NCBI GenBank assembly: GCA_025360225.1
Contig: JANYCN010000034.1
Coordinates: 98,063 to 153,853, forward strand
Source of the DNA: Actinomycetes bacterium
GTDB lineage: Bacteria; Actinomycetota; Thermoleophilia; Gaiellales; F1-60-MAGs149
Length of the DNA stretch: 55,791 nt
Direction of reading: 5' to 3'
Part shown: in pieces, positions 381-55,791 of the stretch
Numbering within the stretch: position 1 is the first letter of the stretch
Layout of the letters: every line of letters begins with the position of its first letter
Program-made: the position numbers and the translations under genes
The notes under the pieces: model-generated
What the model saw: only the letters and a program-made list of their open reading frames with translations
The model's database searches: none
What the model was told of the DNA's origin: nothing

Positions 381-2099
381 GTGGCACGGAAGCACTCCCG
401 GTGGCGTCCGTCGCGTGACGCGTGGCGACTGGCCGCGCTGTGCGCGGCGCTCACCGGTACGGCTTCGCTGCTGCTGGTGGCGTTCGGGCCACCGGGGATC
501 GACCGCGCCGCCCACCTCTACCACGTCGCGCAGTTTCATCGCTACGGCTGGCAGGTGTGGGATAACTACTGGTACGCCGGCCGCTACGAGCTCGTCAACT
601 ACAGCATCGGCTACTACCCGATCGCGGCCGCCACCGGGCTCGACACGCTCGTCGTCGTCGCCTCCGCGCTCGGCAGCGCGGCGTTCGCCGGGCTCGTGCG
701 GGTCGTCGCACCACGCTACGGCACCGCTGCCGCCGTCGCCTTCGCTGCCACCTGGCCGGCCACCGTGATCGCCGGCCAGTACCCCTTCGCCCTCGGCGCA
801 GCGCTTGCGATGCTCGCGCTGCTCGCCTTCCTCTGCCGACACCACCTGACCGGGCTCGCGCTCGCCGTCGCCGCTGCCGCGGTCAGCCCGCTGGCGTTCC
901 TGCTCCTGACGATGGCGCTGGTCGGGATGGTCGTCGGGGCGCGCCGACGGATCCTGCACCTGCCGCGCGCCCGCGTTGCCCTCGGCGGGCTGATCGCGGT
1001 GATCGTCAGCGAGGTGGCGATCCTGCGCCTCTTCCCGATCGACGGCGCCTTCCCCTTCCCGACGAGCGACATGGTGCTCGTGCTCGCGCTCTGCATCGCC
1101 GGCGCCGTGATCGCCCGCGACGATCTCGGCCTCGCCTTCCTCTTCGGCGCATACGGCGTGTTCGCCGCCACGTTCTACCTGATGCCGACCGGCGTCGGCG
1201 GCAACATCGAGCGGCTCGCGGACTACGCCGCCGTGCCGCTGCTGGTGGTCGCCTACGGCCGCCGAGCCAGGCCGCTGCGCCTCTCCGCAGCGCTCGTGCT
1301 CGGCATCGCTGCCGTCTCCCAAGCCGCCCCGATCGTCCGAAACGTCACGGCCGCGCTCGAGGAGAGAGCGGCGTCGGCGGCGTTCTGGGCTGGCGCGATC
1401 ACGTTCCTGACGACGCAGGGCCACGGCGACCCAAACTTCCGTGTCGAGGCCGTCGCGACGGTCGGCCACCAGGAGAGCCTGTACCTCGCCGAGGCGAACA
1501 TCCCGTTGACGCGCGGCTGGTATCGCCAGGATGACTTCCCGATCAACGCCCCGCTCTACGGCGGCGCGCTCGAGGCCTCGAGCTACCTCGACTGGCTCCG
1601 CTCGCTCGCCGTCCGCTACGTCGTGCTGCCGCGTGACCGGCTCGACTACTCGGCGCAGCGTGAGGCGCAGATCCTCGAGCCGGGGCTGACCGAGGCGAGC
1701 ATCCCGGGACTCGCCCTCGTGCATCGCGATGCGACGGTTGACGTGTACGAGCTGCGCGACCCGACGCCGCTGCTCACCCTCGACTACCCGGTCGGCGATC
1801 CCGAGGCGCCCGCCGCGGGCGGGCCGACGGTGTTGCGGTTCGCGCCGACAGCGCTTGCCCTCTGGCTGCCCGGGCCGGGCGTCTACGACCTGCGGGTGCG
1901 CTACACGCCGTTCTGGCGCACGGCCGATCCTGGCGTCTGCGTCGCGCCAGGCGTCGACTCGAGCCTCTCGCGGGTGGTGACCGATCACGGCGGCCCGGTC
2001 GTCCTCGCCTTCGACGTCACGCTCGCCCGCACCGCGTCTCAGGCGCTCGGGTCGGAACAGAACCCGTGCCTCGTGCCGCTCAGGGTTGAACGACCGTGA
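381..2099 (+). CDS. Polytopic membrane protein, GT-C/YfhO-like, function unknown
   Basis: A 572-residue protein starting at GTG 381, with a purine-rich AGGAGGTGAGA 14 nt or so upstream. One hydrophobic segment lies at about residues 15-35. Many more are packed between about 80 and 320, followed by a soluble C-terminal third (about 345-572) without membrane segments. The first periplasmic loop contains IDRAAHLYHVAQFHRYGW and WYAGRYELVNYSIGYYP, resembling the first loop of GT-C type lipid-linked sugar transferases where an acidic residue is catalytic. I could not match it to a named family. The last 20 bases overlap the convergent response regulator gene. Confidence 0.72.
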   Translation: MARKHSRWRPSRDAWRLAALCAALTGTASLLLVAFGPPGIDRAAHLYHVAQFHRYGWQVWDNYWYAGRYELVNYSIGYYPIAAATGLDTLVVVASALGSAAFAGLVRVVAPRYGTAAAVAFAATWPATVIAGQYPFALGAALAMLALLAFLCRHHLTGLALAVAAAAVSPLAFLLLTMALVGMVVGARRRILHLPRARVALGGLIAVIVSEVAILRLFPIDGAFPFPTSDMVLVLALCIAGAVIARDDLGLAFLFGAYGVFAATFYLMPTGVGGNIERLADYAAVPLLVVAYGRRARPLRLSAALVLGIAAVSQAAPIVRNVTAALEERAASAAFWAGAITFLTTQGHGDPNFRVEAVATVGHQESLYLAEANIPLTRGWYRQDDFPINAPLYGGALEASSYLDWLRSLAVRYVVLPRDRLDYSAQREAQILEPGLTEASIPGLALVHRDATVDVYELRDPTPLLTLDYPVGDPEAPAAGGPTVLRFAPTALALWLPGPGVYDLRVRYTPFWRTADPGVCVAPGVDSSLSRVVTDHGGPVVLAFDVTLARTASQALGSEQNPCLVPLRVERP

Positions 2100-2865
2100 C
2101 GGGCTCGACGGCGAGCGGCTCGGCGGCGAGCGGCTCGACGGCGAGCGGCTCGGCGGCGAGCGGCTCGGCGGCGAGCGGCTCGGCGGCGAACCGGTAGCCA
2201 ACGCCGTACTGGGTGTGGATGTAGGCGAACCGCGCGGACGGTTGGTCGAGCTTCTCCCGCACCTTGCGGATGCAGACGTCGACGGTACGATCGCGATGCC
2301 GCGGGCGGGTGCCCCAGACGCGTTGCTGCAGCTCGTCTCGGGTCATCACGCGACCGCGATCGCGGGCGAGGACGAGCAGCAACCTGAACTCGGTCGGCGT
2401 CAGGCAGAGGTCCTCGTTCTCGAGGAACGCCCGGCGCTGGTCGGCGTCGATGCGCATCCCCTCGACCTCGATCACCCCCTCACGATCGTCGACGAGCCCG
2501 CCGCGGCTGCGCCTGACCGCTGCCTGGACGCGCGCGACGAGCTCGCGCATCCCGAACGGCTTGGCGAGGTAGTCGTCCGCGCCAATCCCGAGGGTGTGCA
2601 CCTTGTCGTGCTCTGAAGCGCGCGCGGACACGACGATGATCGGCGTTCCGATCCGCTCACGCCGCGCCGTCTCGGTCAGCGCCCACCCGTCGAGGCCGGG
2701 AAGCATCAGGTCGACCACGGCAACGTCGGGCCGCTCGTAGCGGAGCTTCGCAAGGCCGCGCTCGCCGTCGTCCACCCACTCCACAGCAAACCCTGCGTGG
2801 CGTAGATGCGTCGCCATGACGCGGGCGATCACGGGGTCATCCTCGATCAGTAGGACGGCAGGCAC
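2080..2865 (-). CDS. OmpR/PhoB-family response regulator with C-terminal pentapeptide repeat
   Basis: A 261-residue protein starting at GTG 2865. The receiver domain (about 1-120) has the acidic pair ED at 8-9, phospho-acceptor Asp52 (VVDLMLPG), Ser80 and Lys102 (YLAKPFG). A winged-helix DNA-binding domain (about 130-232) has the TPTEFRLL and RTVDVCIRKVREKL signatures of the PhoB class. The chain ends in an unusual tail of repeated AAEPL/AVEPL units encoded by a 15-bp minisatellite. The kinase gene at 2922 is divergent and the likely partner. A close paralogue lies at 4785-5501. Confidence 0.92.
   Translation of the reverse strand: MPAVLLIEDDPVIARVMATHLRHAGFAVEWVDDGERGLAKLRYERPDVAVVDLMLPGLDGWALTETARRERIGTPIIVVSARASEHDKVHTLGIGADDYLAKPFGMRELVARVQAAVRRSRGGLVDDREGVIEVEGMRIDADQRRAFLENEDLCLTPTEFRLLLVLARDRGRVMTRDELQQRVWGTRPRHRDRTVDVCIRKVREKLDQPSARFAYIHTQYGVGYRFAAEPLAAEPLAAEPLAVEPLAAEPLAVEPVTVVQP
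2102..2191. repeat. Minisatellite, six 15-bp units inside the response regulator 3' end
   Basis: Six consecutive 15-bp units of the form GGCTCGRCGGCGAGC differ only by A/G at one position plus a final variant. They are in frame and encode the xEPLA pentapeptide tail of the minus-strand response regulator. The array begins just past the stop of the convergent membrane-protein gene. Confidence 0.9.
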
Positions 2866-2871
2866 GACACT

Positions 2872-2877
2872 ACCCTA
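2872..2877 (-). promoter_or_regulatory. -10 hexamer, leaderless promoter of response regulator 1
   Basis: Minus-strand TAGGGT lies 6 nt before the GTG at 2865, which supports that start codon. Confidence 0.55.
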
Positions 2878-2921
2878 CTCGCGTCGCGGGCCATCTCGGG
2901 ATACGCGCTGGTGAGCGAACG

Positions 2922-4181
2922 GTGAAGAACCGGATCGATCTCGGCCGCGGTCAGGGGCGGGCCTGGCATGCTGGCGTCGTGGTCGCCCTCACGCTGATCG
3001 TCGCCGCGTTGATCGCCGCCGTGGTCGTGCTAGCCGTCCACGTCGTGCGTCTCCGTGCCGAGCGACACGAGGCCGCGGCGCTGCTCAACGCCCGTGATGA
3101 GCCGCTCGCGGTGACGATCGGCCGCGAGCTGCGACAACGCGTTCCCCGCGAGGAGCTCGCCGCGACCCTCTTCTCCCGCGAGGCGGTCCTCGACGCGGCA
3201 CCATCGCCCGTCGTCGTGTTCGACGGCGGCGGGCACGTTCGACGGGCGAACAACGCCGCACGCGCCGCGCTCCCCGCCTGCGTCGAGGGGGCGCACGCGG
3301 CGGCGCTCGGGCAAGAGCTCGCCGCAGCGCTGGTGGACGTCCTGCAGGGCCCGGCGCCGGTCGATCGCGAGGTGGTGATCGACGATCCGGTCAGGCGCAC
3401 GTTCCAAGCGCACCTGCGCTCCCATCCCGACGGCGACGCGCGCGGCGCCGTCGCCGTCCTCGTCGACGTCACGTCGAGCGTCGACTTTCGCGAGGCACGC
3501 CGGCTGTTCTCCGCCGCCGTCTCACACGAGCTACGAACGCCGCTCGCGCGAATCCTCGGCCTTGTCGAGACGCTCTCGCTGCCACAGACCGAGGCGGAGC
3601 GCGACGACCTGATCGTCCTGATCGAGCGCGAGATCGACAACATGCGTCGCCTGGTGGATGAGATGCTCCTGCTCGCCGCGCTCGACCGCGGAGACCTCGT
3701 GTCGTCAGCGGAGTCGAGCGACGCGGGCGCGATCGCCCACGACGTGATCGACGAGCGGCGGGCACGGCGGTCAGCCCGCGACACCGTCCTGACGGTGGAC
3801 GCCGTGCGTGGGCTGCACGTCGCCGTCCCCGGCCGCCTGCTCGAGGTCGTGATCGGCAACATCGTCGACAACGCGGTGCGCCATGGCGGCAGCGGCACGT
3901 CCGTCGCCCTGGCGGTGCGCGGCCTCGCCGGGGAGGTGGAGGTGGTGATCGCCGACGACGGCGTCGGCATCGCGCCGGAGCACCTGCCGCACGTGTTCGA
4001 GCGTTTCTACCGCGGCGAGGCTTCACGCGCCGGGCCCGGAACGGGCCTCGGGCTGTCCGTCGTCAAGCACATCGCCGAGACGTACGGAGGACGGGTCTCC
4101 GCAGACTCGACGCCCGGCACCGGGACGACGGTGCGACTGGTCCTGCCGGAGGCGCTCGGGTTGCCTACCAGCGGTTCTTGA
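2922..4181 (+). CDS. Sensor histidine kinase, PhoR-like (TM-PAS-HisKA-HATPase)
   Basis: A 419-residue protein from GTG 2922. One transmembrane helix (about 18-42) is followed by a PAS-like region (about 88-190, AAPSPVVVFDGGGHVRRAN). The HisKA domain has phospho-acceptor His202 in SHELRTPL. The HATPase domain has the N box NIVDNAVRHG, the G1 box DDGVGIAP and the G2 box GTGLGLSVV. It has no extracytoplasmic sensor loop of any size, as in PhoR of actinobacteria. It is divergent from response regulator 1 and its 3' end overlaps the convergent DUF47 gene by 17 bases. With two similar regulators nearby, the cognate partner cannot be read from sequence alone. Confidence 0.93.
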   Translation: MKNRIDLGRGQGRAWHAGVVVALTLIVAALIAAVVVLAVHVVRLRAERHEAAALLNARDEPLAVTIGRELRQRVPREELAATLFSREAVLDAAPSPVVVFDGGGHVRRANNAARAALPACVEGAHAAALGQELAAALVDVLQGPAPVDREVVIDDPVRRTFQAHLRSHPDGDARGAVAVLVDVTSSVDFREARRLFSAAVSHELRTPLARILGLVETLSLPQTEAERDDLIVLIEREIDNMRRLVDEMLLLAALDRGDLVSSAESSDAGAIAHDVIDERRARRSARDTVLTVDAVRGLHVAVPGRLLEVVIGNIVDNAVRHGGSGTSVALAVRGLAGEVEVVIADDGVGIAPEHLPHVFERFYRGEASRAGPGTGLGLSVVKHIAETYGGRVSADSTPGTGTTVRLVLPEALGLPTSGS

Positions 4182-4797
4182 TCGAGAGCGTGGCGAGGCG
4201 GTCGGCAACCGCCCGACAGGCGTCGATCGCATCCTCGAGCGCCTCGTGGATCGACTTCAGCCGGACGATCTCCAGGGCGTCGAGGCCGGAGTGGAAGAGG
4301 CGCGCCGTCGCGTCACGACGAAGGCGGTCACCCTCCTCCTCGAACGCCTGCACCTCGCTGAGGTACACGCCGATCCCACCGAGTCGCGGCAACCGCCTGA
4401 TCGCATCGCCGACGCTCTCCGTCGCCGCGACGAGCACCCTGCCCTGCGCGCGCGCCTGCTCGGGCAGGGCGACCGGTCGGTAGAGCGCGACCTCGTCCGC
4501 GACGTCGTCGATGCGGTCGAGCACGTCGTCGACTGCGCGCGCCAAAGCCAGCAGGTCGCGACCGTCCACCGGGGTCGAGAAGGCCTCCTCGATCGCGACC
4601 CGAAGCCCGGCGACGATCCCATCGCAGCGCCGCTCGATGGGGTGGATGTCTTCGAGCCGCGTGATGCCCTCGGGGTACCGGTCGAGCGCATCGGAGAGCA
4701 GCAACGCCGCCTCGACAGCGCACGCCGCGGCCCCCCGAACCGCAGTAAAGTACCGGTCAGGTCGACCGTCGACAAGGTCGATCGTTAGCCGGCGCAG
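4165..4797 (-). CDS. DUF47 / PhoU-like phosphate-transport accessory protein, probable CTG start
   Basis: An all-helical protein of about 210 residues matching the DUF47 family (PhoU-like, usually partnered with Pit-type phosphate transporters). Visible blocks are RYFTAVRGAAACAVEAALLL, IHPIERRCDGIV, ALARAVDDVLDRIDDVADEV and RLKSIHEALEDAIDACRAVAD. No ATG, GTG or TTG exists where the family N-terminus should be. An in-frame CTG at 4797 has GAGG 7 nt upstream and gives MRRLTIDLVDGRPDRYF, the expected length and beginning. It overlaps the end of response regulator 2 by 13 bases, so translation is probably coupled. The next in-frame TTG (4704) would delete the first helix. No phosphate transporter is adjacent. 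Confidence 0.8.
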   Translation of the reverse strand: MRRLTIDLVDGRPDRYFTAVRGAAACAVEAALLLSDALDRYPEGITRLEDIHPIERRCDGIVAGLRVAIEEAFSTPVDGRDLLALARAVDDVLDRIDDVADEVALYRPVALPEQARAQGRVLVAATESVGDAIRRLPRLGGIGVYLSEVQAFEEEGDRLRRDATARLFHSGLDALEIVRLKSIHEALEDAIDACRAVADRLATLSIKNRW

Positions 4798-5501
4798 GGC
4801 GTCGCCTCGAAGCGGTAGCCGATCCCGTAGTGGGTCTGGATGTAGGTCATCGCTCCCGTCCCGTCGGCGAGCTTCTCGCGCACCTTGCGGACGCAGACGT
4901 CGACCGAGCGGTCGCGCGGGCGGTAGGGGATGCCCCAGACGCGTTGCTGCAGCTCGTCGCGGCTCATCGCCTTCCCGCTCGAGCATGCGAGCGTCCACAC
5001 GAGCCGAAACTCCTTCACCGTCAACGCTGCGTCGCGGAGGCCACCGTCACCATCGACGACGAAGGCACACTGCTTCGCCGCGTCGAGCCGCAGCCCGGGC
5101 ACCTCGATCGGCTCCTCGCTCGTCGCGCGCGGGGCGATCTGCGAGCGACGCAGCGCAACACCGACGCGTGCGACGAGCTCGCCCATCGACGCTGGCTTGG
5201 TGATGTAGTCGTCGGCACCGCGCTCGAGGACGTGGATCTTGTCGAACTCTGCCGCGCGCGCCGACATCACGATGATCGGCGTCGTGACGCCCTCGCCGCG
5301 GAGCTGGTCGATCACCGACCAGCCGTCCGTGCCCGGAATCATCAGGTCGAGCACGACGACGTCCGGACGCTCGAAACGCACCTTCTTCAGCGCTCGGCTT
5401 CCATCGCCAACGGTCGCGACGTCATGGCCCGCGGCCGTCAGGTGCCGGCGCATGACCTCGCTTAGGACCTGGTCGTCCTCGACGATCAGCACGCTCGCCA
5501 T
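4785..5501 (-). CDS. OmpR/PhoB-family response regulator 2
   Basis: A 238-residue protein from ATG 5501. The receiver has Asp52 (LDLMIPG), Ser80 and Lys102 (ITKPAS). The winged helix has VKEFRLVW and RSVDVCVRKVREKL. It is strongly similar to the regulator at 2080-2865 throughout both domains but lacks the pentapeptide tail. The start is fixed by a TACGAT hexamer 6 nt upstream. The reading frame is open further upstream, but only by running antisense through tRNA-His. It forms an operon with the downstream DUF47 gene, pointing to phosphate or envelope signalling. Confidence 0.93.
   Translation of the reverse strand: MASVLIVEDDQVLSEVMRRHLTAAGHDVATVGDGSRALKKVRFERPDVVVLDLMIPGTDGWSVIDQLRGEGVTTPIIVMSARAAEFDKIHVLERGADDYITKPASMGELVARVGVALRRSQIAPRATSEEPIEVPGLRLDAAKQCAFVVDGDGGLRDAALTVKEFRLVWTLACSSGKAMSRDELQQRVWGIPYRPRDRSVDVCVRKVREKLADGTGAMTYIQTHYGIGYRFEATPCAG
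4805..4808 (-). promoter_or_regulatory. Shine-Dalgarno sequence deciding a CTG start for the DUF47 gene
   Basis: Minus-strand GAGG lies 7 nt before CTG 4797 within the end of response regulator 2. Spacing is optimal for initiation and no canonical start codon lies nearby in frame. Confidence 0.5.
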
Positions 5502-5507
5502 GACACC

Positions 5508-5513
5508 ATCGTA
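5508..5513 (-). promoter_or_regulatory. -10 hexamer, leaderless promoter of response regulator 2
   Basis: Minus-strand TACGAT lies 6 nt before ATG 5501. Confidence 0.55.
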
Positions 5514-5564
5514 CCAAGGCGGCCCCGCCCGCCGTCGGCGTCGTGGTCGATCGCTGTCGGCCGC

Positions 5565-21399: not shown

Positions 21400-21404
21400 C
21401 CGCT

Positions 21405-21481
21405 CGTGGTCTGATCGTGAGATGGCGTGGTCATCCGACTGCCACCCAATGACCATCCGCATCTGACAATCACACCACTAG
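21405..21481. repeat. Miniature copy (77 bp) of the CTAG-ended inverted-repeat element
   Basis: Only the two ends of the repeat family remain: the left end GTGGTCTGATCGTGAG..., then directly the right end ending ...ATCACACCACTAG. The two arms are about 80 percent complementary and would fold into one long hairpin. It lies 5 bases after the SDR stop and may terminate that operon. Confidence 0.85.
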
Positions 21482-24102: not shown

Positions 24103-24133
24103 ACGACGTCAGGCCCCCGAGGAAGGATTGCCC

Positions 24134-25915
24134 GTGACCGCGATCGCACCGACCGGCCCCCGCGCCGCAGGCGTCCACTGGGACCTGTCCCAGCTCGTGA
24201 GCGACGCCGCGTCCGCGCGGCAGCTGCTCGACGAGGCGCTCATCTCGTGCGAGGCCTTCGCCGCGACGACGCGCGGGACGGTGGCGACGCTCGACGGCGC
24301 CGGGCTCGCCGCGGCGCTCGCGGCGCTCGCGACGATCGACAACGCGCTCTCCCGCGCCGGCTCGTACGTCGGGCTACGCCGGTCGGTCGACGTGAACGAC
24401 GACGAGGCACGCGACCTCGAGGCGTTCGCCGACCAGGCGTACGTGCGGGCGGCAAACACGCTGCGGTTCTTCGAGCTCGAGTGGATCGCCCTCGACGACG
24501 AGGTCGCAGACGCCCTGCAGGCCGCTCCCGAGGTCGCTGGCGATGCCCATCATCTCGCCCTGCTGCGGCGCTACCGCCCGCACCGGCTGGCGGAGCGCGA
24601 GGAGCAGATGCTCGCAGAGCGCAACCCAGCTGCCGTGCAGGCCTGGCAGAACCTCTTCGAGCAGACCGTGGCGAACGTGAAGGCGTCGTTTGACGGCGGC
24701 GAAGGTGAGCGCGACCACACGACCGACGAGCTCCTGTCGTACGTCTACTCCGGCGACCGAGCGCTCCGACGCGGCGCACTCGAGACGGTGTACGGCGCGT
24801 TGGAGCCGCTGACGCCGATCCTGGCGCACTGCTACGACTCGCTCGTCGCCGACCGCCTCGTTGACGATCGCCTGCGCTCCTACGGCGGCCCGATGGCACA
24901 GCGCAACCTCTCGAACGAGCTCGACGACGACGCCGTCGAGGCGATGATGGTGGCGATCGAGAGCCGCTATGACATCGCCCACCGCTGGTACCGGCGCAAG
25001 GCGCAGCTGCTCGGGCTCGACAAGCTTGCGCTCTACGACCAGTACGCGCCGCTCGGCGAGGGGCGATCGGTCGGCTATGACGAGTCACGTGCGCTGGTGC
25101 GCGCTGCCTTCAACCGCTTCTCCGGTGAGATCGCCGACGTCTCCGAGGCCTTCTTCGACGAGCGGCGTGTCGACGCCGAGCCGCGCCAGGGCAAGCGCGG
25201 CGGTGCCTTCTGCGCATCCGTCGCACAGGCCAGCCAGCCGTTCATCATGCTCAACCACACCGATCGGCTCCGTGACGTGATGACGATGGCGCACGAGCTC
25301 GGTCACGGGATGCACTTCACCTACTCCGCACGCCGGCAGTCAGCTCACTCCTTCCACTCCGGCATCGCGCTCGCCGAGGTCCCCTCGACGTTCGCCGAGC
25401 TCGTGCTCTTCGACCACCTGATGGAGCACGAGGATGACCCGGCGACGCGGTCAGCGCTCGTCCGCGGCGAGCTAGAGTCCGGTTTTGCGACGGTCTTCCG
25501 CCAGACGATGATGGCCCGCTACGAGCAGGACGCCTACGCGATGCGGGCAGATGGCAAGGCCCTCACGGCCGACCGGCTCGCGGAGCTGTGGCTCGCCCGC
25601 AACCAGCGCCAGTACGGCGATGCCGTCGAGCTACCTGAGGGCTACCGCTGGGGCTGGAGCTACATCCCGCACTTCATCAACACGCGCTTCTACACCTACG
25701 CCTACGCGTTCGCCCATCTCGCGAGCCTCGTGCTGTACGCCACGTGGCGCGAGCAGGGCCCGGCGTTCGTGCCGCGGTACCTCGACTTCCTCTCGCTCGG
25801 CGGAGCGTCCTCGCCTGGCGACCAGCTCGGAGCCTTCGGCATCGACCTGCGGGACACAGCAACGTGGCACCGCGGTCTCGACGAGCTGGAGCGGCTGCTC
25901 GAGGTGGCGGGCTAG
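24134..25915 (+). CDS. M3-family oligoendopeptidase (PepF-like)
   Basis: 593 residues from GTG 24134, chosen over TTG 24128 because GGAAGG is spaced 7 nt from the GTG. The zinc motif is His387-Glu388-x-x-His391 in MAHELGHGMHF, and the third ligand lies in the ALAEVPSTFAEL helix. The N-terminal helical domain and the closing GWSYIPHFINTRFYTYAYAF are typical of the PepF-related group. It is a cytosolic peptidase for short peptides. Its TAG stop codon lies within the CTAG end of repeat copy 2. Confidence 0.94.
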   Translation: MTAIAPTGPRAAGVHWDLSQLVSDAASARQLLDEALISCEAFAATTRGTVATLDGAGLAAALAALATIDNALSRAGSYVGLRRSVDVNDDEARDLEAFADQAYVRAANTLRFFELEWIALDDEVADALQAAPEVAGDAHHLALLRRYRPHRLAEREEQMLAERNPAAVQAWQNLFEQTVANVKASFDGGEGERDHTTDELLSYVYSGDRALRRGALETVYGALEPLTPILAHCYDSLVADRLVDDRLRSYGGPMAQRNLSNELDDDAVEAMMVAIESRYDIAHRWYRRKAQLLGLDKLALYDQYAPLGEGRSVGYDESRALVRAAFNRFSGEIADVSEAFFDERRVDAEPRQGKRGGAFCASVAQASQPFIMLNHTDRLRDVMTMAHELGHGMHFTYSARRQSAHSFHSGIALAEVPSTFAELVLFDHLMEHEDDPATRSALVRGELESGFATVFRQTMMARYEQDAYAMRADGKALTADRLAELWLARNQRQYGDAVELPEGYRWGWSYIPHFINTRFYTYAYAFAHLASLVLYATWREQGPAFVPRYLDFLSLGGASSPGDQLGAFGIDLRDTATWHRGLDELERLLEVAG

Positions 25916-26259
25916 TGGTCTGATCGTGAGATGGCGTGGTCATCCGACTGCCTGGAGCGTCCTGCGCTTGCCGGCTCTGCCAACCGTCGGGTAGCTCTAC
26001 CAGCGAGCTGCGGCGACCACGATCCGGCCCGCTCTGCGTGCCCGATCGTGGGCTTCGCGGGAACGCCGCGCGCCGCTTGCACTTAGCGTGTCAAGGCCTT
26101 CGCCTTGACACGCGTGCGAGCGGGCGTGCTATCCAGCACGCCCGCGATCAGCAGGCCCTGCGCGACGCGCAACGCTCCCGCTCGCTCCAGACACCCGATG
26201 ACCATGCCATCTGACAATCCATTCCCGGCCGCTAGAACAATTCGGAATCAATCATCTAG
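25912..26259. repeat. CTAG-ended inverted-repeat element, copy 2 (full, with twin hairpins)
   Basis: About 310-345 bp filling the space between two convergent genes. The left end CTAGTGGTCTGATCGTGAG and the inverted right end (ATGACCATGCCATCTGACAATC...) form imperfect terminal repeats. Two perfect hairpins lie inside: a 12-bp stem GCGTGTCAAGGC at 26086-26113 and an 11-bp stem GCGGGCGTGCT at 26120-26145, each with a 4-nt loop. CTAG at 25912 contains the stop of the M3 peptidase, and CTAG at 26256 the stop of the opposing GGDEF gene. It may act as a bidirectional terminator. No protein is encoded. Confidence 0.9.
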
Positions 26260-28157
26260 CGGATCTGGACGCCGCTCGGGCGCGCGTCCTCCTCCTGGCT
26301 GGCGGTGTGGATCGCCGGTGTCCTCGCAAGCGGTCGCGTCGCGCGTGCGACCTCAGCGGTGACGAGCGCCTCGGCGGCGTCGCTCTCGATCCGCGAGCCG
26401 CCGCTGTGAACGACCTGGTCGCGCCCGCCCTCTTTCGCGGCGTACAGGCCGGCGTCCGCGATCCGCAGAAGCGCCTCGAGCGTGTCGGCCTGCGTCGAGT
26501 CGGTGACACCGAAGCTGCCGGTGAAGCGTGGATGGTCACCGGTGTGCGCCTGCGCGAGCTCGGCGCGGAGCCGTTCGCAGAACGCCACCGCCGCCGCCGC
26601 GTCAGCATCGGGAAGGACGAGCACGAACTCCTCGCCGCCGAAGCGCGCCGCAAGGTCGCCCTCGCCGACGACGCCGCGCACGACCTGGCTGAACAGCCGC
26701 AGCGCGCGATCTCCCGCCTCGTGCCCATGGGTGTCGTTCAGCGACTTGAAGCGGTCGAGGTCGGCCATCGCGAGCGCGAAGCGCCGGCCATGGGACATCA
26801 GCTGGCGCACCTCGTTCTCGAGGGTGCGACGGTTGATGAGGCCCGTCAGTCCGTCCGTGGAGGCCTGAAGCTGCGTCTTCTCGAACGCTCGCACGGTGCC
26901 GATCCGCGCGCCGGACTGCGTGACGAGCGTCGTTAGCTGCGCTACCTGCTCGGCGCGGAGCGGCTCGCCCACCGGTCCCGTCGCGTGCAAGACCCCAAGG
27001 GCCCGCCCCATGAAGGTGACCGGCACGCACACCGCCGAGCACGGACCGCTGGCACGGCCGCGGAGCTTCGGACAGGCGCTCAGCGCCTCGGAGTCCTCGA
27101 ACACGACAGGGTTGCCACGGCGCACAGCGACGCAGGAGAACGGCGACTGCACGGGACACCCCGGAGCGCCAGCGGTCGGGCTCGCGGCGGCCGGCTCGAG
27201 GCTCGCCTTGCTCGAGTCTGACAACAGCAGCTCCATCGGTGCGCTGCGCGCAACCTCCACCATCGCGCGCTCGATCACCTCGTGCGCTGCGTCCTCCTCG
27301 TCGGCCATCTCGAGGGCCTCGACGAGCTGGCTGCCGAAGCCGTCGCGCTGAGCGTCTGCCTCGAGGCGGTCAACGAACCCGGTGAGGCTGTCCGCCATCT
27401 CGTTGAACTTCGCCGCGAGGACGCCGATCTCGTCGCGCGAGTCGACGTTGGCGCGCGCCCTCAGGTCGCCCGCGACGACGCGGCCGGCGACCGCTCCGAG
27501 ACGGTTGAGCGACACCACGATCGAACGGCCGAGCCACCACGTCAGCACGATCAGGCCGAGGAAGCTCGCGATCCCGCCGAGGGCGAGGCGCACCAGCGTC
27601 GCGTGACGCGTCGACGCGGTGAGCGTCGCCTGCTCTGCCCGGCGCGCCTCGATGGCGCGCAGCACCCCGTCCTGCGCCGCCTCGGCGTCGCGGAAGCGCA
27701 CCTCGAACGGTCCCAGGGCGGTCGCCGCCCACGCCGTGTCCGCGCCGGCGCGTCGGGCGATCTCCTCGGCGCCCGTGATGTAGCTCTCGAGCCGGGTGCG
27801 GACGCTCGCCAGCGCACGCGCGGCGTGCGCGTCAAGGTTCAGCCCGGCGATCGACTCGATGTCCTTCCGAAAGCGCGCGGCGTCATCAGCGGTGTCCTTC
27901 GCGATCGCCGCGAGCTCGGCGGCCGGTCGGTGCTGCACCACGGCGAGCACCGTCCGGTGGGCGTCGCCCCGCAGCGCGTCGTGCATCATGTCGCCGTCCT
28001 GGAAGTAGCGCTGCGCCTCGCTGACGGTCGCAGTCTCCGTCGCGGTGCTCGACATCTGCGCGAACCCGATCATCGCCGATGCGGTGATCGCCATCGTGAA
28101 GACCTGACCGATCACCGCAATTCCAAGGATCCGCTTGCGCACGGAGATGGCTCGCAC
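26256..28157 (-). CDS. Diguanylate cyclase: TM-sensor-TM-HAMP-GAF-GGDEF
   Basis: 633 residues from GTG 28157. The first membrane helix is at about 12-33. A helical extracytoplasmic domain (about 34-185) and a second helix (about 190-210) are followed by a HAMP linker (GRVVAGDLRARANVDSRDEIGVLAAKFNEM, abbreviated) and a GAF-like domain (about 280-430). The GGDEF domain has LTGLINRRTLE, DLDRFKSLNDTHGHEAGD and RFGGEEFVLVLPD. The intact GGEEF active site indicates c-di-GMP synthesis. The GAF segment holds five or six cysteines (GCPVQSPFSC, ACPKLRG, PCSAVC), suggesting redox or metal sensing. The acidic C-terminal tail is unique. The stop codon comes from repeat copy 2. Confidence 0.92.
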   Translation of the reverse strand: MRAISVRKRILGIAVIGQVFTMAITASAMIGFAQMSSTATETATVSEAQRYFQDGDMMHDALRGDAHRTVLAVVQHRPAAELAAIAKDTADDAARFRKDIESIAGLNLDAHAARALASVRTRLESYITGAEEIARRAGADTAWAATALGPFEVRFRDAEAAQDGVLRAIEARRAEQATLTASTRHATLVRLALGGIASFLGLIVLTWWLGRSIVVSLNRLGAVAGRVVAGDLRARANVDSRDEIGVLAAKFNEMADSLTGFVDRLEADAQRDGFGSQLVEALEMADEEDAAHEVIERAMVEVARSAPMELLLSDSSKASLEPAAASPTAGAPGCPVQSPFSCVAVRRGNPVVFEDSEALSACPKLRGRASGPCSAVCVPVTFMGRALGVLHATGPVGEPLRAEQVAQLTTLVTQSGARIGTVRAFEKTQLQASTDGLTGLINRRTLENEVRQLMSHGRRFALAMADLDRFKSLNDTHGHEAGDRALRLFSQVVRGVVGEGDLAARFGGEEFVLVLPDADAAAAVAFCERLRAELAQAHTGDHPRFTGSFGVTDSTQADTLEALLRIADAGLYAAKEGGRDQVVHSGGSRIESDAAEALVTAEVARATRPLARTPAIHTASQEEDARPSGVQIR

Positions 28158-28285: not shown

Positions 28286-28544
28286 CTAGTGGCGTGATTG
28301 CGCGATTGCGCGTGCATCAGGTGCCTGGAGCGCGCGGGAGCGTCGCGCGTCGCGCAGGGCTTGCTGGGGCACGTGCACGCGGCGCGCAACGCTCCCGCGA
28401 AGCCCGTGAGCCGGCACGCAGAGCGGGCCGGAACGTGGTCGCCGCAGCTAGCTGGCAGAGCCACCCAACGGGTGGCAGAGCCAGCAAGCGCAGGACGATC
28501 CAGGCAGCCGGATGCCCACTCCAACTCGCAATCAGACGATGAGC
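28286..28544. repeat. CTAG-ended inverted-repeat element, copy 4 (inverted, diverged, no twin hairpins)
   Basis: Read on the minus strand this is the same family: GTCTGATTG... then the conserved GGCTGCCTGGATCGTCC, GGCTCTGCCACCCGTTGGG and GCGGGAGCGTTGCGC blocks, ending ...CACGCCACTAG. It lacks the roughly 70-bp segment with the two perfect hairpins. It lies between the broken gene at 28545-29172 and the GGDEF gene. The remaining 128 bases up to the GGDEF start hold no gene and presumably its promoter, although I could not pick a clear -10. Confidence 0.85.
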
Positions 28545-31259: not shown

Positions 31260-31582
31260 CTAGCTCGTGGTCTGATTGTCAAATAGCGTGGTCATCCGAC
31301 TGCCTGGATCGTCCTGCGCCTGCCGGCTCCGCCACCCGTCCGGTGGCTCTGCCAGCCAGCTGCGGCGACCACGCCGCGGCCCGCCGTGCGTGCCGGAACG
31401 TGGGCTTCGCGGGAACGCCGCGCGCCGCCTGCACTTAGCGTGTCAAGGCCTTCGCCTTGACACGCGTGCGAGCGGGCGTGCTATCCAGCACGCCCGCGAT
31501 CAGCAAGCCTCGCGCGACGCGCAACGCTCCCGCTCGCTCCAGACACCCAATGACCACGCCATTTCAACAATCAGACCACTAG
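31260..31582. repeat. CTAG-ended inverted-repeat element, copy 3 (full, with twin hairpins)
   Basis: About 320 bp between convergent genes. The left end GTGGTCTGATTGTCAAATAG and the right end, which reads CTAGTGGTCTGATTGTTG on the other strand, are an inverted pair extending about 40 bp with mismatches. The hairpins at 31438-31465 and 31472-31497 are identical in sequence to those of copy 2, although the rest differs at many sites. CTAG at 31579 contains the stop codon of the giant Ig-like protein. No gene is present. Confidence 0.9.
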
Positions 31583-34500
31583 CGTCCGAGCCAGACGAAG
31601 GTCGAGCTGCCGATCAGCTTGCCGTACCGCGCTGGGCGACGGGCGCCGATGCCGGGCCAGACGTACCAGGTGTAGCGCTTGCCGGCCTTCAGGCCCTTCG
31701 TCGGCAACGTCCAACGAGTGCCGGTCGGCCAGGCCTGGGCGACGAGCTTCTTGCCGATGTAGACCTGCACGTTGTAGTACGTCGCGCGCTTCACGGCCGT
31801 CCAGGACAGGTGCACCGCGCCACGTACCTCGGTGCCTGCGAGCGGCGCGACCCGACCGAGCTTCGGGATCGCGACGGTGACGACCGCAGCGCCGCTCGTG
31901 TTGCCCACCGCGTCCTGCGCGAAGACAGCGTAGTAAGCGGTCGAGCCGGCGGCCTGCTGACGCGTCAGCGTGCGAGCGGTCCCCGCGGCAAGCAGGGTGC
32001 CGTCCGTCGGGCCGGTCGGCGCGTGCGAGCCACTGACGACCAGGCGGTATCCCGTGACGTCCGGCGACGTCGACGCGGGCCAGCCGAGCACGACCTTTGC
32101 ACCGGCAACGCGTGCGGTGAGCGCCGCCGGAGCACCGGGCGCCGTGATGTCAGGGGTGACCACGGCCGCAGTCGATCCGGGCGCTGAGGCGTTTCCGGCG
32201 ACGTCGACGGCGAACACGCTGTAGCGGTACGTCGTCTTCTCCGTGATCGCCGTATCGGCACACGTGACGGTGACAAGCGACCCGCCGCAGACCGCGACGC
32301 CGTCCGTCACGCTCGCCGGCGCGGTGGCGCCGATCGCACGACGCACGAGGTAGTGGTCAAGATCAGCCGGAACCGCCGTCCATGAGAGGTCAACGCCCGA
32401 CCCGTCGGCCCGTGCCGTGCCCGTCGCCGCGCTCGGGGCGGCTGGCGGGGTCGTGTCGTAGGTGATGACGACCGGCGTCGAGGCAGCGGACTCGTGCACG
32501 CCGTCGAAGGCGCGGACGACGTAGGAGTGGTCGCCATCGCTCGAGGCGCCGAGCGAGTCGGTGAACGACGGCGTCGTCACCGTGACCGGGGTCAGCGATC
32601 CATCGCGGTAGACGTGCCACTCGACGACGTCGCTGCCGCCCGCGGGGGCAGGCCAGCTGAGGGTCGGCTGCGCCTTCGTCGGGCTCGCGCCACCGCTCAC
32701 GACGGGCGCTGGCGGTGCGGTGTTGTCGACGACGATCGTGATCGTCGCGTCAGTGCTGTTGCCGAGCACGTCGAACGCGCGCGCCGTCAGCGTGTGCGAG
32801 CCATCTGCGACGCCGCTCGTCGTGTCCCAGCTGAAGCCCGAGCCGATGTCCGCGACGAGCACCGTCGTGCCCTCGCGCAGCTCGATCCGCGCGACCGAGG
32901 TGGTGGCGTCCGTCGCGCTGGCGTGCACGACGATCGTGTCGCCGTAGCGGTGTCCGGCCTGGATCGTCGGCGTGGTCGTGACCAGCGGCGTCGTCGGCCC
33001 GGTGTTGTCGACCGTGACCGAGCGCGGTACGCTCGTGACGGCGTGAGCGACAACGTCGTGCGCCACGAGCAGCAGCGCGTGCACACCGTCGCTCTCGCCC
33101 GCCGTGTTCCAGGACGCGCCCGAGGAGACGTCCGCGATGCGCTGGACGCCGTCCACGAGAAGCGCGACGCGCACGAGGTTCGTATCGCTGCTCGCTCCCT
33201 GAACGGCCACCGCGCCATGGACGTTCGATCCGTCGACCGGCTCCGTGCCGAACGTCGGCGTCGTCGGTGCGACGGTGTCGATCAGGACGCCCGTCGACGC
33301 GCCGACGATGGTCGTGTTCCCGACCGCGTCGACGGCGACGACGCGCAGATCCCAGACGCCGTCGGCGAGGGTCGCGGAAAGGTCGTACGGGCTCGTCGCA
33401 CCTGCGGTCGCCATCTGCGCGAAGGCGTTGGCTCCCGTCCGTGCCTCGAGCGAGACCGAGGCGACGCCGGTGCCGCCCGTGTCGGTGACCGTGCCGGTGA
33501 CGTCAACGATGCCGCTCGGCTGCGCGCTCCCGTCCGCCGGGGCGGTCGAGACGGTGAGTGCCGGCGCCGTGTTGTCAACCGTCACCGTGCGGCTCGCGGG
33601 CGTCGAGACGTTCCCCGCGCCGTCGTAGGCAACCAGCGCGATCACGTGCGAGCCGTCGCCCGCGGTCGTCGTGTCCCACACGGACGGCGCCGAGACGTCG
33701 GCGAGCTTCTCCACGCCGTCAACGAGCAGGGCGACGCGCGTCAGGTGCGGGTCGGTCGCTTGGCCCAGTACGGGGACGGTACCGGCGACCGAGGCACCGT
33801 CTACCGGGCTGCCCGGCTGGAAGGTCGGGGTGGTCGGAGCGACGGTGTCGATCGTCGTCGTCACGGTCGTCGAGTCGGGCGACTCGTGGATCCCGTCGTA
33901 GGCCCGCACGACGAACGTGTGCGCACCGTCCGCCGAGCCGTCGAGGGCAAGGCTCGGTGTGAACGACGGGGCGGGGACGGTCGCGAACGAGGCCGACCCG
34001 TCGACGTAGACGTGCCACTCGGACACGTCGTTCGTGCCGACGAGCGCGTCCCATGTGACGGCAGGGTTCGTGCGGACGAGCGCCGCAACGCCCAGGCCGG
34101 TCGGCGCTGCCGGTGGCAGGTTGTCGACGATCACGGTGAGCGTCGTGTCGGCCGTGTTGCCGGCGAGGTCGTAGGCGCGCGCCGTCAGGGTGTGGGTGCC
34201 GTCCGGCCCGAGCGTCGTGTCCCAGCTGTAGCCAGCGCCGATGTCCGCCGTCAGCACCGTCGCGCCGTTGCGTAGCTCGATCCGTGTGACGGACGTCGTC
34301 ACGTCGCTCGAGGAGGCGTTGATGACGATCGTGTCGCCGTAGCGCACGCCGGCGGTGATCGTCGGCGTCGTGGTCACGACGGGTGCGGTCGGCGCGATGT
34401 TGTCCACCGTGACCGAGAGCGACGCGACCGTCGAGGCGTTGTCGGCGACGTCGTAGGCCTTGAGCGCGATCGTGTGCGGGCCGTCCGGGAACGACACCGC

Positions 34501-37500
34501 GGCGGTGTCCCAGCCGGCCTGCGTGCGGACGTCGGCGATCACCTGCAATCCGTCGACGAGGAACGCGACGCGGACGAGGTTCGTGTCCGTGCTCGCGCCC
34601 CGAATCTGGACGATGCCGCGCACGGCGTCGCCGTTCATCGGGCCGACCGCGAACGTTGGCAGCGTCGGCGCGACCGTGTCGACGATCACGCCGGCGCCCG
34701 CTGCGACGGTCGTCGTGTTGCCGGCAGCGTCGGTGGAAACGACGCGCAGATCCCAGGCACCGTCAGCAAGCGATGAGGAGGTGAGCGAGTACGTCGCTCC
34801 ACCGGTGGAGTCGGTCGCGACGGTGGCGTACGCGTTCGTGCCGACGCGGGCCTGCAGCACGACCGAGGCGAGGCCGCTCGTCAGGTCGCTCGACGCGCCG
34901 GTCACGGTGACGGTGGTCGTCGCCTGCGCGCTGCCGTCGACCGGGTGTGTCGCGACGCTGAGGATCGGCGGCACGTTGTCGACGGTGACGGTGCGCGAGG
35001 TCGTCGAGCTGTTGCCGGCAAGGTCGTAGGCCGTGAGCGAGATCGTGTGGGGGCCGGTAGCCTCCACGGTCGTGTCCCAGGACTGGGTGGTGCGCACGTC
35101 GACGATCCGCTGCGATCCGGCGACGAGGAAGGCGATGCGGGCGAGGTTCGTGTCGAAGCTCGAGCCGAGAACGGGGACGGCGCCGCGAACAGCGCTTCCG
35201 TCGGCTGGCGAAACCGTCGGGTCGAAGAGCGGGACGGTCGGCGCGGTGTTATCGACCGTCAGCGAGCCGATCGTCAGGTCGGTCGTCAGGCCGACGTTGT
35301 CGTAGGCACGGAGCACGAGGGTGTGCGCGCCGTCGGAGAACGCGGTCGTGTCCCAGGATGCGCCCGACGTGACGTCGGCGAGGCCCTGCGCACCGTCGAC
35401 GAGCAGCGCGACGCGGGCGACGCCCGCACCGGCATCGGACGACGAGGCGTGCACCGGCACGGACTGGCGCACCTGTGCGCCCGCGACCGGTCCCTGCAGG
35501 ACGGTCGGCGTGGACGGGGCGGTGTTGTCCACCGTGACGTTGACGACCGTGTCGTTCGTGAGACCGCCGTTATCGACGGCGCGCAGGGTGAGCGTGTGTG
35601 CGCCGTCAACGACGGCGGTCGAGCTCCACGAGTAGCCTGCGCCGATCGCGGGCGTCGTCGCGGTGGCCGAGCCGTCGACGTAGAGCGCGATCCGGGCGAC
35701 CCCCGACGTGGCGTCGGTGGAGGTCGCGGTCACCGACACCGTGCCGGTGACGAACGTCCCGGCCGTCGGCGAGGTGACGACGGGCGCGGTCGGCGGGGTG
35801 TTGTCGACCGTGATCGGTCGCGAGCTGGTCGTCTGGTTGCCGGCCGTGTCGTACGCGCGCAGGGAGATCGTGTGCGGTCCGTCTAGCACCGACGCGGTGT
35901 CCCAGCTCGACAGGAGCTGGACGTCGGCGATCACCTCCACGCCGTCGACGCGGAACGCGACGCGCGCGAGGTGGGGGTCGGACGCCGAGCCCCGGATCGA
36001 CTGCGACCCGTGGACGACCGCGTTGGCAGCCGGTCCCGGGTTCCAGGTGACGGCGGTCGGGGCCGTCGTGTCGAGCGTCACGCCCGTCGCCACGGCGGTC
36101 GTGCTCGTGTTGCCGGCGACGTCGGTGGCGACGACCTGGAGGTCGACGGTCAGGTCGGACGGTGCCGTCCAGCTCGTCGTGTAGGTCGCTCCGCCCGAGG
36201 AGTCGGTCGCGACCGTGGCATAGGCGGCAGCGCCGACGCGCTCCTGCAGCGCCACCGAGGCGACGCCGCTCAGCGCATCGCTCACGGAGCCGGAGACGGT
36301 CACCGTCCGCGAAGGCTGGGCGCTGCCGGTGGCGGGAGCCGTCGTCGGTGCGGGCAGGGTCGGCGCGGTGTTGTCGATGATCAGGCCGGTAACGGGCGGG
36401 GACGCGGCGGAGACGTTACCGACGACGTCGTAGGCGCGCAGACGAAGGCTGTAGGTGCCGTCAGCGCCGACGGTCGTGTCCCAGGTGTAGGGCCCTGGCG
36501 TGTTGACGGCCGAGACGAGCGTCCACGGCGGCCCGCCGGTGCTGCTCTTCTCGAGATCGATGTGTCCGACCGAGGTCGTCGCGTCGGTCGGCGTCGTCGA
36601 GGAGAACGCGACCATGCCACGCTGTACCGAGCCGTTCGCGGGTCGAGTCACGAACACCGGCGCGTTCGGGCCGGTGTTGTCAACCGTGACACTGCCGATC
36701 GTCGTGTCTTGCGTGTTGCCGACGACGTCGTAGGCGCGCAGCACGAGCGTGTGCGCGCCGTCGGTCGACCCCATCGAGTTCCAGGCGGCGGCGGTGGTGA
36801 TGTCCGAGATCACCTGCAAGCCGTCGACACGGAGCGCGACGCGCGCGAGGCCCGAGTCGGCGTCGGTCGCCGAAGCCTGCACCGTCACCGTGCCGCCGAC
36901 GTTCGTTCCGTCGGTCGGGCCCTGCACCCTGACGGGCGCGGTTGGCGGCGTGTTGTCAACGAGGACGTTGGAAACGAGGACGCCCGTCGCGACGGAGTTC
37001 CCCGCGAGGTCGTAGGCGACGAGGCGGAAGTCGAGATGACCCGTCCCGGACGACGCCCAGTCGAGCGAGGTGTACGGATCGGTCGAGTCAGACGAGACCT
37101 CCGTCCACGTCGTGGCGAGGTGCGTTGCCCGTTCGACGGCGACACGGGCGATGCCGGAGCCACCGGTGTCGACCGGCGTCGAGGAGGCAAAGCTGATCGT
37201 GCCGCCCGTCACGGCGTTGTCGGCGGGCGCCGTGGTGAAGGTCGGCAACACGTCAGGCGGCGTGTTGTCGTAGGTGAGAGCGAGGACCGGCGCGGAGGCC
37301 GCCGTGTTCCCGGCACCGTCCGTCGTGACGAACTCCGCGTCCCACACGGTCGCGTCGTAGAACGGGTCCGACGTGTCCACGGTGATCGTCGTGAACGGCG
37401 GGACGAGCTGCGTCGCCTCCGTCGTCCAGACCGGGACGATCAGCCCGTTCAGCGAGACGGCGATCTCCGTCCTCGCGACGCCGGCAAGCGCGTCGGAGAC

Positions 37501-37935
37501 GGACGTGGCGGTGAAGGCGACCGACCCGCGTAGCGCCGTCCCTGCGGGCGGGCTCATCAGGGTGGGCGTCGCCGGCGCCGTACCGTCGTAGGTCGTGACG
37601 ACGCTGATCGACAAGGTGGCGTCGGTCACGCCCGCAACGAGGTAGCACCAGGCGCCTTCGGTGGGCGGCGTGTCGGAGTAGGTCGTTGCGCCGTTCACGG
37701 TGGCCAGCTGGTCGGTGACGATCGGCGTCGTCGAGCAGCTCGACCCAGAGGTGCTGGCGTGCCGCCAGATGTCGTAGTCGACGTTTGAACCGTTGTCCGT
37801 CCAGTTCAGCACGACGCCGTTCGCGGCGCCGCTGAAGGCCGGGAGGGCGGTGACGGTGATCGACGCCGAGGCGACGACGGGCACGGCGAACAGGAGAGCG
37901 GCGGCGAGGCCGACGAGCACGCGAAAACGGGGCAT
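31579..37935 (-). CDS. Giant secreted Ig-like/fibronectin-type repeat protein (2118 aa)
   Basis: A signal peptide (MPRFRVLVGLAAALLFAVPVV..., cleavage near ASA at about 24) leads into a chain of about 20 beta-sandwich repeats of 75-110 residues. Each opens with DNTAPTAP-like linkers and contains VARVALLVDG and DGxHTLxLRAYDxxGN blocks, typical of bacterial Ig-like domains. Two fibronectin-III-like domains (PAAPSAATGTARADG..., PGAPAALTARVAG...) and a separate C-terminal domain (LSWTAVKRATYYNVQVYIGKK) follow. No sortase motif or terminal membrane anchor is seen, so retention would be non-covalent. A surface adhesin or matrix role is inference. A five-domain block is duplicated in tandem. The stop codon is supplied by repeat copy 3. 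Confidence 0.92.
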   Translation of the reverse strand: MPRFRVLVGLAAALLFAVPVVASASITVTALPAFSGAANGVVLNWTDNGSNVDYDIWRHASTSGSSCSTTPIVTDQLATVNGATTYSDTPPTEGAWCYLVAGVTDATLSISVVTTYDGTAPATPTLMSPPAGTALRGSVAFTATSVSDALAGVARTEIAVSLNGLIVPVWTTEATQLVPPFTTITVDTSDPFYDATVWDAEFVTTDGAGNTAASAPVLALTYDNTPPDVLPTFTTAPADNAVTGGTISFASSTPVDTGGSGIARVAVERATHLATTWTEVSSDSTDPYTSLDWASSGTGHLDFRLVAYDLAGNSVATGVLVSNVLVDNTPPTAPVRVQGPTDGTNVGGTVTVQASATDADSGLARVALRVDGLQVISDITTAAAWNSMGSTDGAHTLVLRAYDVVGNTQDTTIGSVTVDNTGPNAPVFVTRPANGSVQRGMVAFSSTTPTDATTSVGHIDLEKSSTGGPPWTLVSAVNTPGPYTWDTTVGADGTYSLRLRAYDVVGNVSAASPPVTGLIIDNTAPTLPAPTTAPATGSAQPSRTVTVSGSVSDALSGVASVALQERVGAAAYATVATDSSGGATYTTSWTAPSDLTVDLQVVATDVAGNTSTTAVATGVTLDTTAPTAVTWNPGPAANAVVHGSQSIRGSASDPHLARVAFRVDGVEVIADVQLLSSWDTASVLDGPHTISLRAYDTAGNQTTSSRPITVDNTPPTAPVVTSPTAGTFVTGTVSVTATSTDATSGVARIALYVDGSATATTPAIGAGYSWSSTAVVDGAHTLTLRAVDNGGLTNDTVVNVTVDNTAPSTPTVLQGPVAGAQVRQSVPVHASSSDAGAGVARVALLVDGAQGLADVTSGASWDTTAFSDGAHTLVLRAYDNVGLTTDLTIGSLTVDNTAPTVPLFDPTVSPADGSAVRGAVPVLGSSFDTNLARIAFLVAGSQRIVDVRTTQSWDTTVEATGPHTISLTAYDLAGNSSTTSRTVTVDNVPPILSVATHPVDGSAQATTTVTVTGASSDLTSGLASVVLQARVGTNAYATVATDSTGGATYSLTSSSLADGAWDLRVVSTDAAGNTTTVAAGAGVIVDTVAPTLPTFAVGPMNGDAVRGIVQIRGASTDTNLVRVAFLVDGLQVIADVRTQAGWDTAAVSFPDGPHTIALKAYDVADNASTVASLSVTVDNIAPTAPVVTTTPTITAGVRYGDTIVINASSSDVTTSVTRIELRNGATVLTADIGAGYSWDTTLGPDGTHTLTARAYDLAGNTADTTLTVIVDNLPPAAPTGLGVAALVRTNPAVTWDALVGTNDVSEWHVYVDGSASFATVPAPSFTPSLALDGSADGAHTFVVRAYDGIHESPDSTTVTTTIDTVAPTTPTFQPGSPVDGASVAGTVPVLGQATDPHLTRVALLVDGVEKLADVSAPSVWDTTTAGDGSHVIALVAYDGAGNVSTPASRTVTVDNTAPALTVSTAPADGSAQPSGIVDVTGTVTDTGGTGVASVSLEARTGANAFAQMATAGATSPYDLSATLADGVWDLRVVAVDAVGNTTIVGASTGVLIDTVAPTTPTFGTEPVDGSNVHGAVAVQGASSDTNLVRVALLVDGVQRIADVSSGASWNTAGESDGVHALLLVAHDVVAHAVTSVPRSVTVDNTGPTTPLVTTTPTIQAGHRYGDTIVVHASATDATTSVARIELREGTTVLVADIGSGFSWDTTSGVADGSHTLTARAFDVLGNSTDATITIVVDNTAPPAPVVSGGASPTKAQPTLSWPAPAGGSDVVEWHVYRDGSLTPVTVTTPSFTDSLGASSDGDHSYVVRAFDGVHESAASTPVVITYDTTPPAAPSAATGTARADGSGVDLSWTAVPADLDHYLVRRAIGATAPASVTDGVAVCGGSLVTVTCADTAITEKTTYRYSVFAVDVAGNASAPGSTAAVVTPDITAPGAPAALTARVAGAKVVLGWPASTSPDVTGYRLVVSGSHAPTGPTDGTLLAAGTARTLTRQQAAGSTAYYAVFAQDAVGNTSGAAVVTVAIPKLGRVAPLAGTEVRGAVHLSWTAVKRATYYNVQVYIGKKLVAQAWPTGTRWTLPTKGLKAGKRYTWYVWPGIGARRPARYGKLIGSSTFVWLGR

Positions 37936-55440: not shown

Positions 55441-55614
55441 GAGATCGACGACGCCGTCTCCCTCGACCGCGAAGCCAACCACTGCCGCGCCGAGTTCAAC
55501 ACCATCAGACCGCACGAAGCGCTCGTCTGGAACCGCCCGCTCGACGTCCACCACCTCCTCGCCAGCCCGACGATCCCCACCTATCAGAAGGCCGAAACCC
55601 TGCCAGTTTCTTGA
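55441..55614 (+). pseudogene. C-terminal remnant of an integrase-core transposase (IS3/IS481-like)
   Basis: 58 codons ending in TGA at 55614 encode EIDDAVSLDREANHCRAEFN, then TIRPHEALVWNRPLDVHHLL. The FNTIRPHEAL motif is the closing element of the DDE integrase core of IS3/IS481-type transposases. No start, DNA-binding domain or DDE residues are found upstream, so only the tail of an insertion sequence survives. It lies 18 bases before repeat copy 5. Confidence 0.75.
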
Positions 55615-55632
55615 CGCAGAACGCGAGAACGG

Positions 55633-55791
55633 TAGTGGTCTGATTGTGAGATGGCGTGGTCATCCGACTGCCTGGATCGTCCTGCGCTTGTCGGCTCTGC
55701 CACCCGTCGGGTGGCTCCGCCGCTCAGCTCCGGCGACCGCGCCCCGGCCCGCTCTGCGTGCCGGATCGTGGGCTTCGCGGGAACGTCGCGC
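55633..55791. repeat. CTAG-ended inverted-repeat element, copy 5 (cut by window end)
   Basis: It begins TAGTGGTCTGATTGTGAG and continues through the family blocks CATCCGACTGCCTGGATCG, GGCTCTGCCACCCGTCGGG and GTGGGCTTCGCGGGAACG to the last base of the window. The right-hand half, including any twin hairpins, lies outside. Confidence 0.88.

Follow-up and report, generated by a model that had tools for sequence, protein, structure and literature searches.

The short repeats bounded by inverted ends that are scattered through the genome of this Thermoleophilia bacterium very probably have no transposase of their own and derive from, or are related to, an IS5-family DDE insertion sequence (IS) of the same genome, which would move them in trans. 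Five copies lie in the window, by which we mean the whole stretch of 55,791 nucleotides that was analysed; the genome comprises 3.24 Mb in 89 contigs, and its copies were read from genome stretches. The repeats are short, carry no transposase gene, possess terminal inverted repeats and occur in many dispersed copies. At the one end of the transposase-bearing element that was seen, their arm and end appear, on sequence grounds, to match those of an element able to supply a transposase. The preliminary description had taken the repeats for miniature inverted-repeat elements (MITEs), and this reading was supported by the number of copies, their terminal inverted repeats, CTAG as the target, their unrelated flanks and a transposase gene that carries the same arm.

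All five sites that had been listed in the window exist (Table 1), and three of the copies (71, 250 and 311 bp) are whole, with both ends legible. The outer end held to be common to them, TAGTGGTCTGATTGT, was matched 7 times in the window with up to 3 mismatches, as compared with 0.21 matches expected in shuffled sequences. The claim that they share the same internal blocks held in part: exact matches of the block GGCTTCGCGGGAACG in the window are all inside copies, but the block alone, with 3 mismatches allowed, was not above chance there (13 matches vs 8.5 expected). The sizes, given earlier as 77 to about 340 bp, were corrected to 71 to about 340 bp in the window. The copy that had been singled out for description (the first type A copy in Table 1) was confirmed at its left end; its right end is damaged, and homology to the family ends at GACAATC. 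The last 38 bp or so of this copy (26218-26255) are non-family sequence with an extra CTAG at 26232, and are followed by the final CTAG. Two convergent genes enclose the copy, and each terminates on one of its CTAGs. The type B copy is without the two inner hairpins described below. Immediately to the left of the last copy, the 23-mer AAACCCTGCCAGTTTCTTGACGC (window 55595-55617) was observed; it recurs with 1 mismatch at L040 (G000:C35), within a different DDE transposase gene that is interrupted and lies close to the end of a contig, a recurrence hinting at a further repeat family.

Table 1. Copies of the repeat family in the window and the flanking CTAGs that coincide with stop codons.
Feature	Position	Position with flanks	Strand	Remarks
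Mini copy, 71 bp	21407-21477	21403..21481	+	Flanks CTCG / CTAG; scarcely extends beyond both terminal arms
Type A copy		25912..26259	+	Copy sequence spans 25916-26255; left end intact; right terminal repeat broken after ~26218
CTAG flank	25912..25915		+	TAG is the stop codon of ORF 24128-25915
CTAG flank, outer right	26256..26259		-	TAG read on the reverse strand ends the convergent ORF 26256-28157 as its stop codon
Type B copy, inverted, 250 bp	28290-28539	28286..28543	-	Flanks CTAG / TGAG
Type A copy, 311 bp	31268-31578	31260..31582	+	Left flank CTAG-CTCG, right flank CTAG
CTAG flank	31579..31582		-	TAG read on the reverse strand ends the 2118-aa ORF 31579-37935 as its stop codon
Copy, left 156 bp only		55632..55791	+	Flank GTAG; copy sequence starts at 55636; end of contig and window cuts off the rest

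Throughout the genome, a 13-base terminal sequence gave 254 matches at a tolerance of 1 mismatch, whereas its reversed control gave 3, and a 20-mer of the left arm gave 98 matches. In a DNA search, 40 of 313 candidates were scored, and nearly all were long matches. The genome total is about 100 or more copies, and the many further copies that the preliminary description had made a requirement of the mobile reading do exist. The anatomy of the family was read from 55 copies with both ends and flanks. Complete copies measure 67-372 bp, with a commonest length of approximately 310 bp. Type A copies (~310 bp) contain two inner hairpins, GCGGGCGTGC-TGGATA-GCACGCCCGC and CGTGTCAAGGC...GCCTTGACACG, which are mostly missing from type B copies (~165-290 bp); mini copies (~70 bp) have hardly anything besides the two arms. 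The ends consist of a 12-bp near-perfect repeat, TGGTCTGATTGT, within imperfect arms of about 45 bp, and position 5 of the right arm occurs as two alleles, C or G. Pairwise divergence among copies ranges from 2.3 to 39% (median 11%), so that the insertions differ in age, and this spread of sequences indicates that insertion recurred in the past. Many contigs terminate within a copy, often 125-150 bp from the copy end (roughly 58 of 178 contig ends by hand count), as is expected of an assembler that meets near-identical repeats.

Two contigs, C26 and C84, start inside a transposase gene and hold its C-terminal part only. The C26 fragment, of 143 aa, scored 42 bits with PF01609 (cut-off 23) and 106.9 bits (E 1.2e-30) with the IS5-family model NF033580, the cut-off of which, 110 bits, applies to the full-length protein and not to a half such as this one. 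Within the DDE triad, the second D is in place, as is the glutamate of the VVER motif, and the partner transposase is of the DDE type and belongs to the IS5 family. Its TGA stop is directly followed by 173-181 bp matching the MITE left half, and then by the terminal repeat and CTAG; over this length the IS arm of C26 is 82-96.5% identical to MITE left halves, and it drew 64 long hits with itself included and redundant loci counted. The fragments on C26 and C84 both end in the MITE terminal repeat and CTAG. In type A copies, two hairpins stand in place of the transposase and anything before it, with the junction at CTAAGTGC. Because the transposase C-terminus adjoins the MITE left half, terminal repeat and CTAG, the copies are best explained as derivatives or relatives of the IS5-type element, and the larger parent element is probably the source of the young copies.

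The 5' half of the IS was not found in the assembly, where both transposase contigs begin mid-gene, and a search for the N-terminus returned as its best match a decayed IS5 member with other ends. Since the shortest contig seen is 3.9 kb, a collapsed internal piece of the IS would probably have been left out of the assembly. Within the class, homologues of the transposase reach no more than 54% identity and belong to compact IS5-type elements, which have GRGCCTATCCC-like ends and TNA or YTAR flanks. The other DDE transposases of the genome (on contigs C35, C87 and C22) were rejected as partners, as they are without the ends of the present family (family 1). A second multi-copy DDE transposase (PF01609), seen at contig ends at L040 (C35:1-1250) and L041 (the end of C87), likewise lacks family-1 ends. 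It might still be argued that the mobiliser is some other transposase, and that the IS5-type one has similar ends through capturing, or inserting into, a MITE. Homologues of type B copies do occur in G003, a genome of a sister genus, where no homologue of the transposase passed E 1e-15, and at least three more CTAG-flanked families have other ends, both of which would accord with such a history. However, it is the young type A copies that most resemble the IS arm, and both IS fragments finish with one and the same terminal repeat followed by CTAG; we therefore regard this alternative as quite unlikely.

Flank statistics support CTAG as the target. Among 53 securely paired complete copies, a set that excludes two copies on contigs C15 and C24 (left flank common with C71), CT(A/C)G stands on both sides in 40 and CTAG on both sides in 21. 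The flanks had been described as CTAG, which is right for many ends, but the strict tetramer has to give way to CT(A/C)G. Inverted-repeat segments bracketed by CTAG numbered 24 from 374 sites, a clear excess, while six other palindromic tetramers bracketed 0-10 segments from 1077-5543 sites each. As CTAG adjoins the two IS ends that were observed and the majority of MITE ends, the target is of the YTAR type, with CTAG preferred. The family has only one direct flank pair that is not CTAG, CTAC/CTAC at L031, and this pair argues for a 4-bp target duplication in family 1. Joining the flanks within the loci read yielded no empty site, only self-matches and matches due to neighbouring copies. The pairing of C15/C24 with C71 was considered as a natural empty site and was discarded, as it looks like assembly overlap; excision footprints at empty sites were not supported either, as every double CTAG in the loci that were read adjoins an extant copy.

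On the element side, the flanking CTAG reads CTCG in about 22% (a fifth to a quarter) of the ends in this genome. The variant is symmetric about the element, is never a direct repeat in family 1, and is also present in the second family described below. Among right ends it was found with the G allele in 12 of 33 and with the C allele in 0 of 40, and this restriction to the G allele suggests inheritance. At 18 of 175 ends, another CTAG is found no more than 8 bp beyond the element. Symmetry, the allele distribution of a seemingly inherited base, and the second CTAG just outside would all be compatible with CTAG, or CT(A/C)G, being a part of the element and not a duplicated target, a reading that concerns the insertion step only and leaves the MITE identity as it is. 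Nevertheless, CTAG is common to families with different ends, the target duplicated by related IS5 elements has a similar core (TNA or YTAR), copies that are nearest neighbours do not agree in the A or C state of the flank (p about 0.3), and the use of CTAG as the neighbours' stop codon fits a target that existed beforehand. Inclusion of the tetramer in the element thus seems rather unlikely, and a duplicated target is preferred. An explanation of CTCG by age was rejected, since the ends that carry C are not clearly more diverged; the variant may stem from a base carried with the element, a gap-filling error after insertion or later mutation.

Outside copies, CTAG is rare (140 in 368 kb, or about 0.38 per kb); 139 other CTAGs were divided into 52 in genes, 27 stop codons and 60 intergenic sites, and of the 135 distinct CTAGs at element ends, 48 serve the adjacent ORF as its stop codon. 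Complete copies adjoin the end of a gene 70 times and the start of one 31 times, their neighbour gene pairs (n = 46) being 20 convergent, 24 tandem and 2 divergent, and no complete copy was found inside a gene when the copies of the genome were compared with gene models, which are simple codon-usage predictions. The intergenic position of the copies is explained in part by the fact that about a third of the end CTAGs are the neighbour's TAG stop. In the mechanism we propose, the IS transposase would recognise the common end TGGTCTGATTGT in trans and insert copies at CTAG, so that this tetramer comes to stand on either side. Because CTAG is rare in this GC-rich genome and outside genes is often a TAG stop codon, insertions would pile up harmlessly at gene ends, and those within genes would be lost by selection.

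Repeats kept at gene ends could also be immobile hairpins of the REP or terminator type, fixed there for a regulatory or structural role. Type A copies fold much more stably than shuffled sequences (z = -9.0), and the 20 convergent pairs among the 46 would suit such a role. Nonetheless, the same ends are linked to a DDE transposase, CTAG brackets the repeats, mini copies consist of the ends only, no intrinsic-terminator-like site was found in the region, no Rfam family reached its gathering score, and no site was common with the sister genus in the sampled loci. Taken with these points, fixed hairpins are a highly improbable explanation. The present family resembles repetitive extragenic palindromes and other short mobile repeats in being hairpin-rich, intergenic and of high copy number, but differs from them in its partner, a DDE transposase whose inverted ends match, and in its target of four nucleotides. 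REP elements with a RAYT (Y1 HUH) transposase, which have no paired inverted terminal repeats, were ruled out by the inverted ends and the DDE partner.

Outside this genome, the 14-base end pattern gave no copy in the 60 nearest relatives, only two stray one-mismatch hits. A sequence search detected homologues in some 20 or more places in G003, whose genus belongs to the same family as that of the window's organism. This MITE family, not previously named, has the same layout, inner sequence and CTAG flanks, with 70-73% identity to type B (71-72% for the type B copy of the window), but its ends differ (TGGTGCGCCACGG / TGGTTCGACACGG), and CTCG is absent from the ends read. Since layout, inner sequence and CTAG are shared yet the ends are different, the type B design probably arose before the two genera separated, and each of them probably amplified a version of its own. 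Because homologues occur in another genus, type B copies need not all be deletion products of the present IS. Conservation at orthologous sites, which the preliminary description had set against mobility, was not encountered: no same-site copy was found in G003 in a comparison of a small part of both genomes. L172 vs L249/L261, considered as a common site, was dismissed as a chance alignment extension. No copies were found in plasmid, phage and IMG/VR collections, and a literature search on Thermoleophilia and miniature inverted-repeat elements found nothing; the statement that no described family has these ends holds in the collections searched.

The window's genome contains at least three more CTAG-flanked families, which have internal hairpin modules in common. 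The second family, with ends TGYACCGTYTYG and several hairpins, has about ten copies (L152:1080-1381, L115, L139, L160 and L212-L219) and shares with type A a 71-bp double-hairpin module of 96-99% identity. A third element has the ends TGTCGCGCGTCC around the same inner hairpins (L222 and L223), and a fourth end type, TGTCCTGGGTCGG, stands beside CTAG-like flanks at L013, L014 and L215. An end similar to TGTCCTGGGTCGG is combined with a family-2 end at L219. At L213, a family-1 end on one side is paired with a family-2 end on the other, and this hybrid, together with the common 71-bp module, points to an exchange of modules between miniature elements, as judged from the sequences. A wider reading, in which CTAG-targeting elements form a mosaic superfamily that swaps ends and the 71-bp module, and in which insertion leaves CTCG on the new strand beside the element, is possible but doubtful; if it were true, the insertion chemistry or strand repair of the lineage could be read from the flanks.

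Comparable systems have been described. MITEPsy1 of Pseudomonas syringae, an IS5-type MITE probably derived from ISPsy2, targets CTAG or YTAA, where it generates a 4-nt duplication, and its movement has been observed (PMC3189936). CTAG is also preferred by IS5 of E. coli, accounting for 15 of 24 recorded targets (PMC5493358). Like MITEPsy1, whose repeats resemble an IS5-type element, the present copies are short and non-coding, have inverted terminal repeats and insert in CTAG; unlike MITEPsy1, with its 100 bp, 6 copies and other ends, they number about 100 and have inner hairpins and long arms shared with the IS. With the IS5 family (IS5, ISAzo38 and ISRer2) they have in common the transposase family, the CTAG/YTAR or TNA target and the catalytic residues, but the closest transposases found are at most 50-54% identical, and the ends of that family are GRGCCTATCCC-like with little subterminal non-coding DNA. 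By analogy, the family appears to work like IS5 and MITEPsy1; it is a new family of a well-known kind, unusual in its copy number, long arms and common hairpin module.

These results name a likely mobiliser for a repeat family that fills many intergenic regions of this genome and breaks its assembly. They also offer a simple reason why the repeats are intergenic, the target tetramer being a common stop-codon context (TAG after C) that is otherwise rare. Finally, the hairpin module that recurs among families with unlike ends allows the exchange of parts by miniature elements to be tested.
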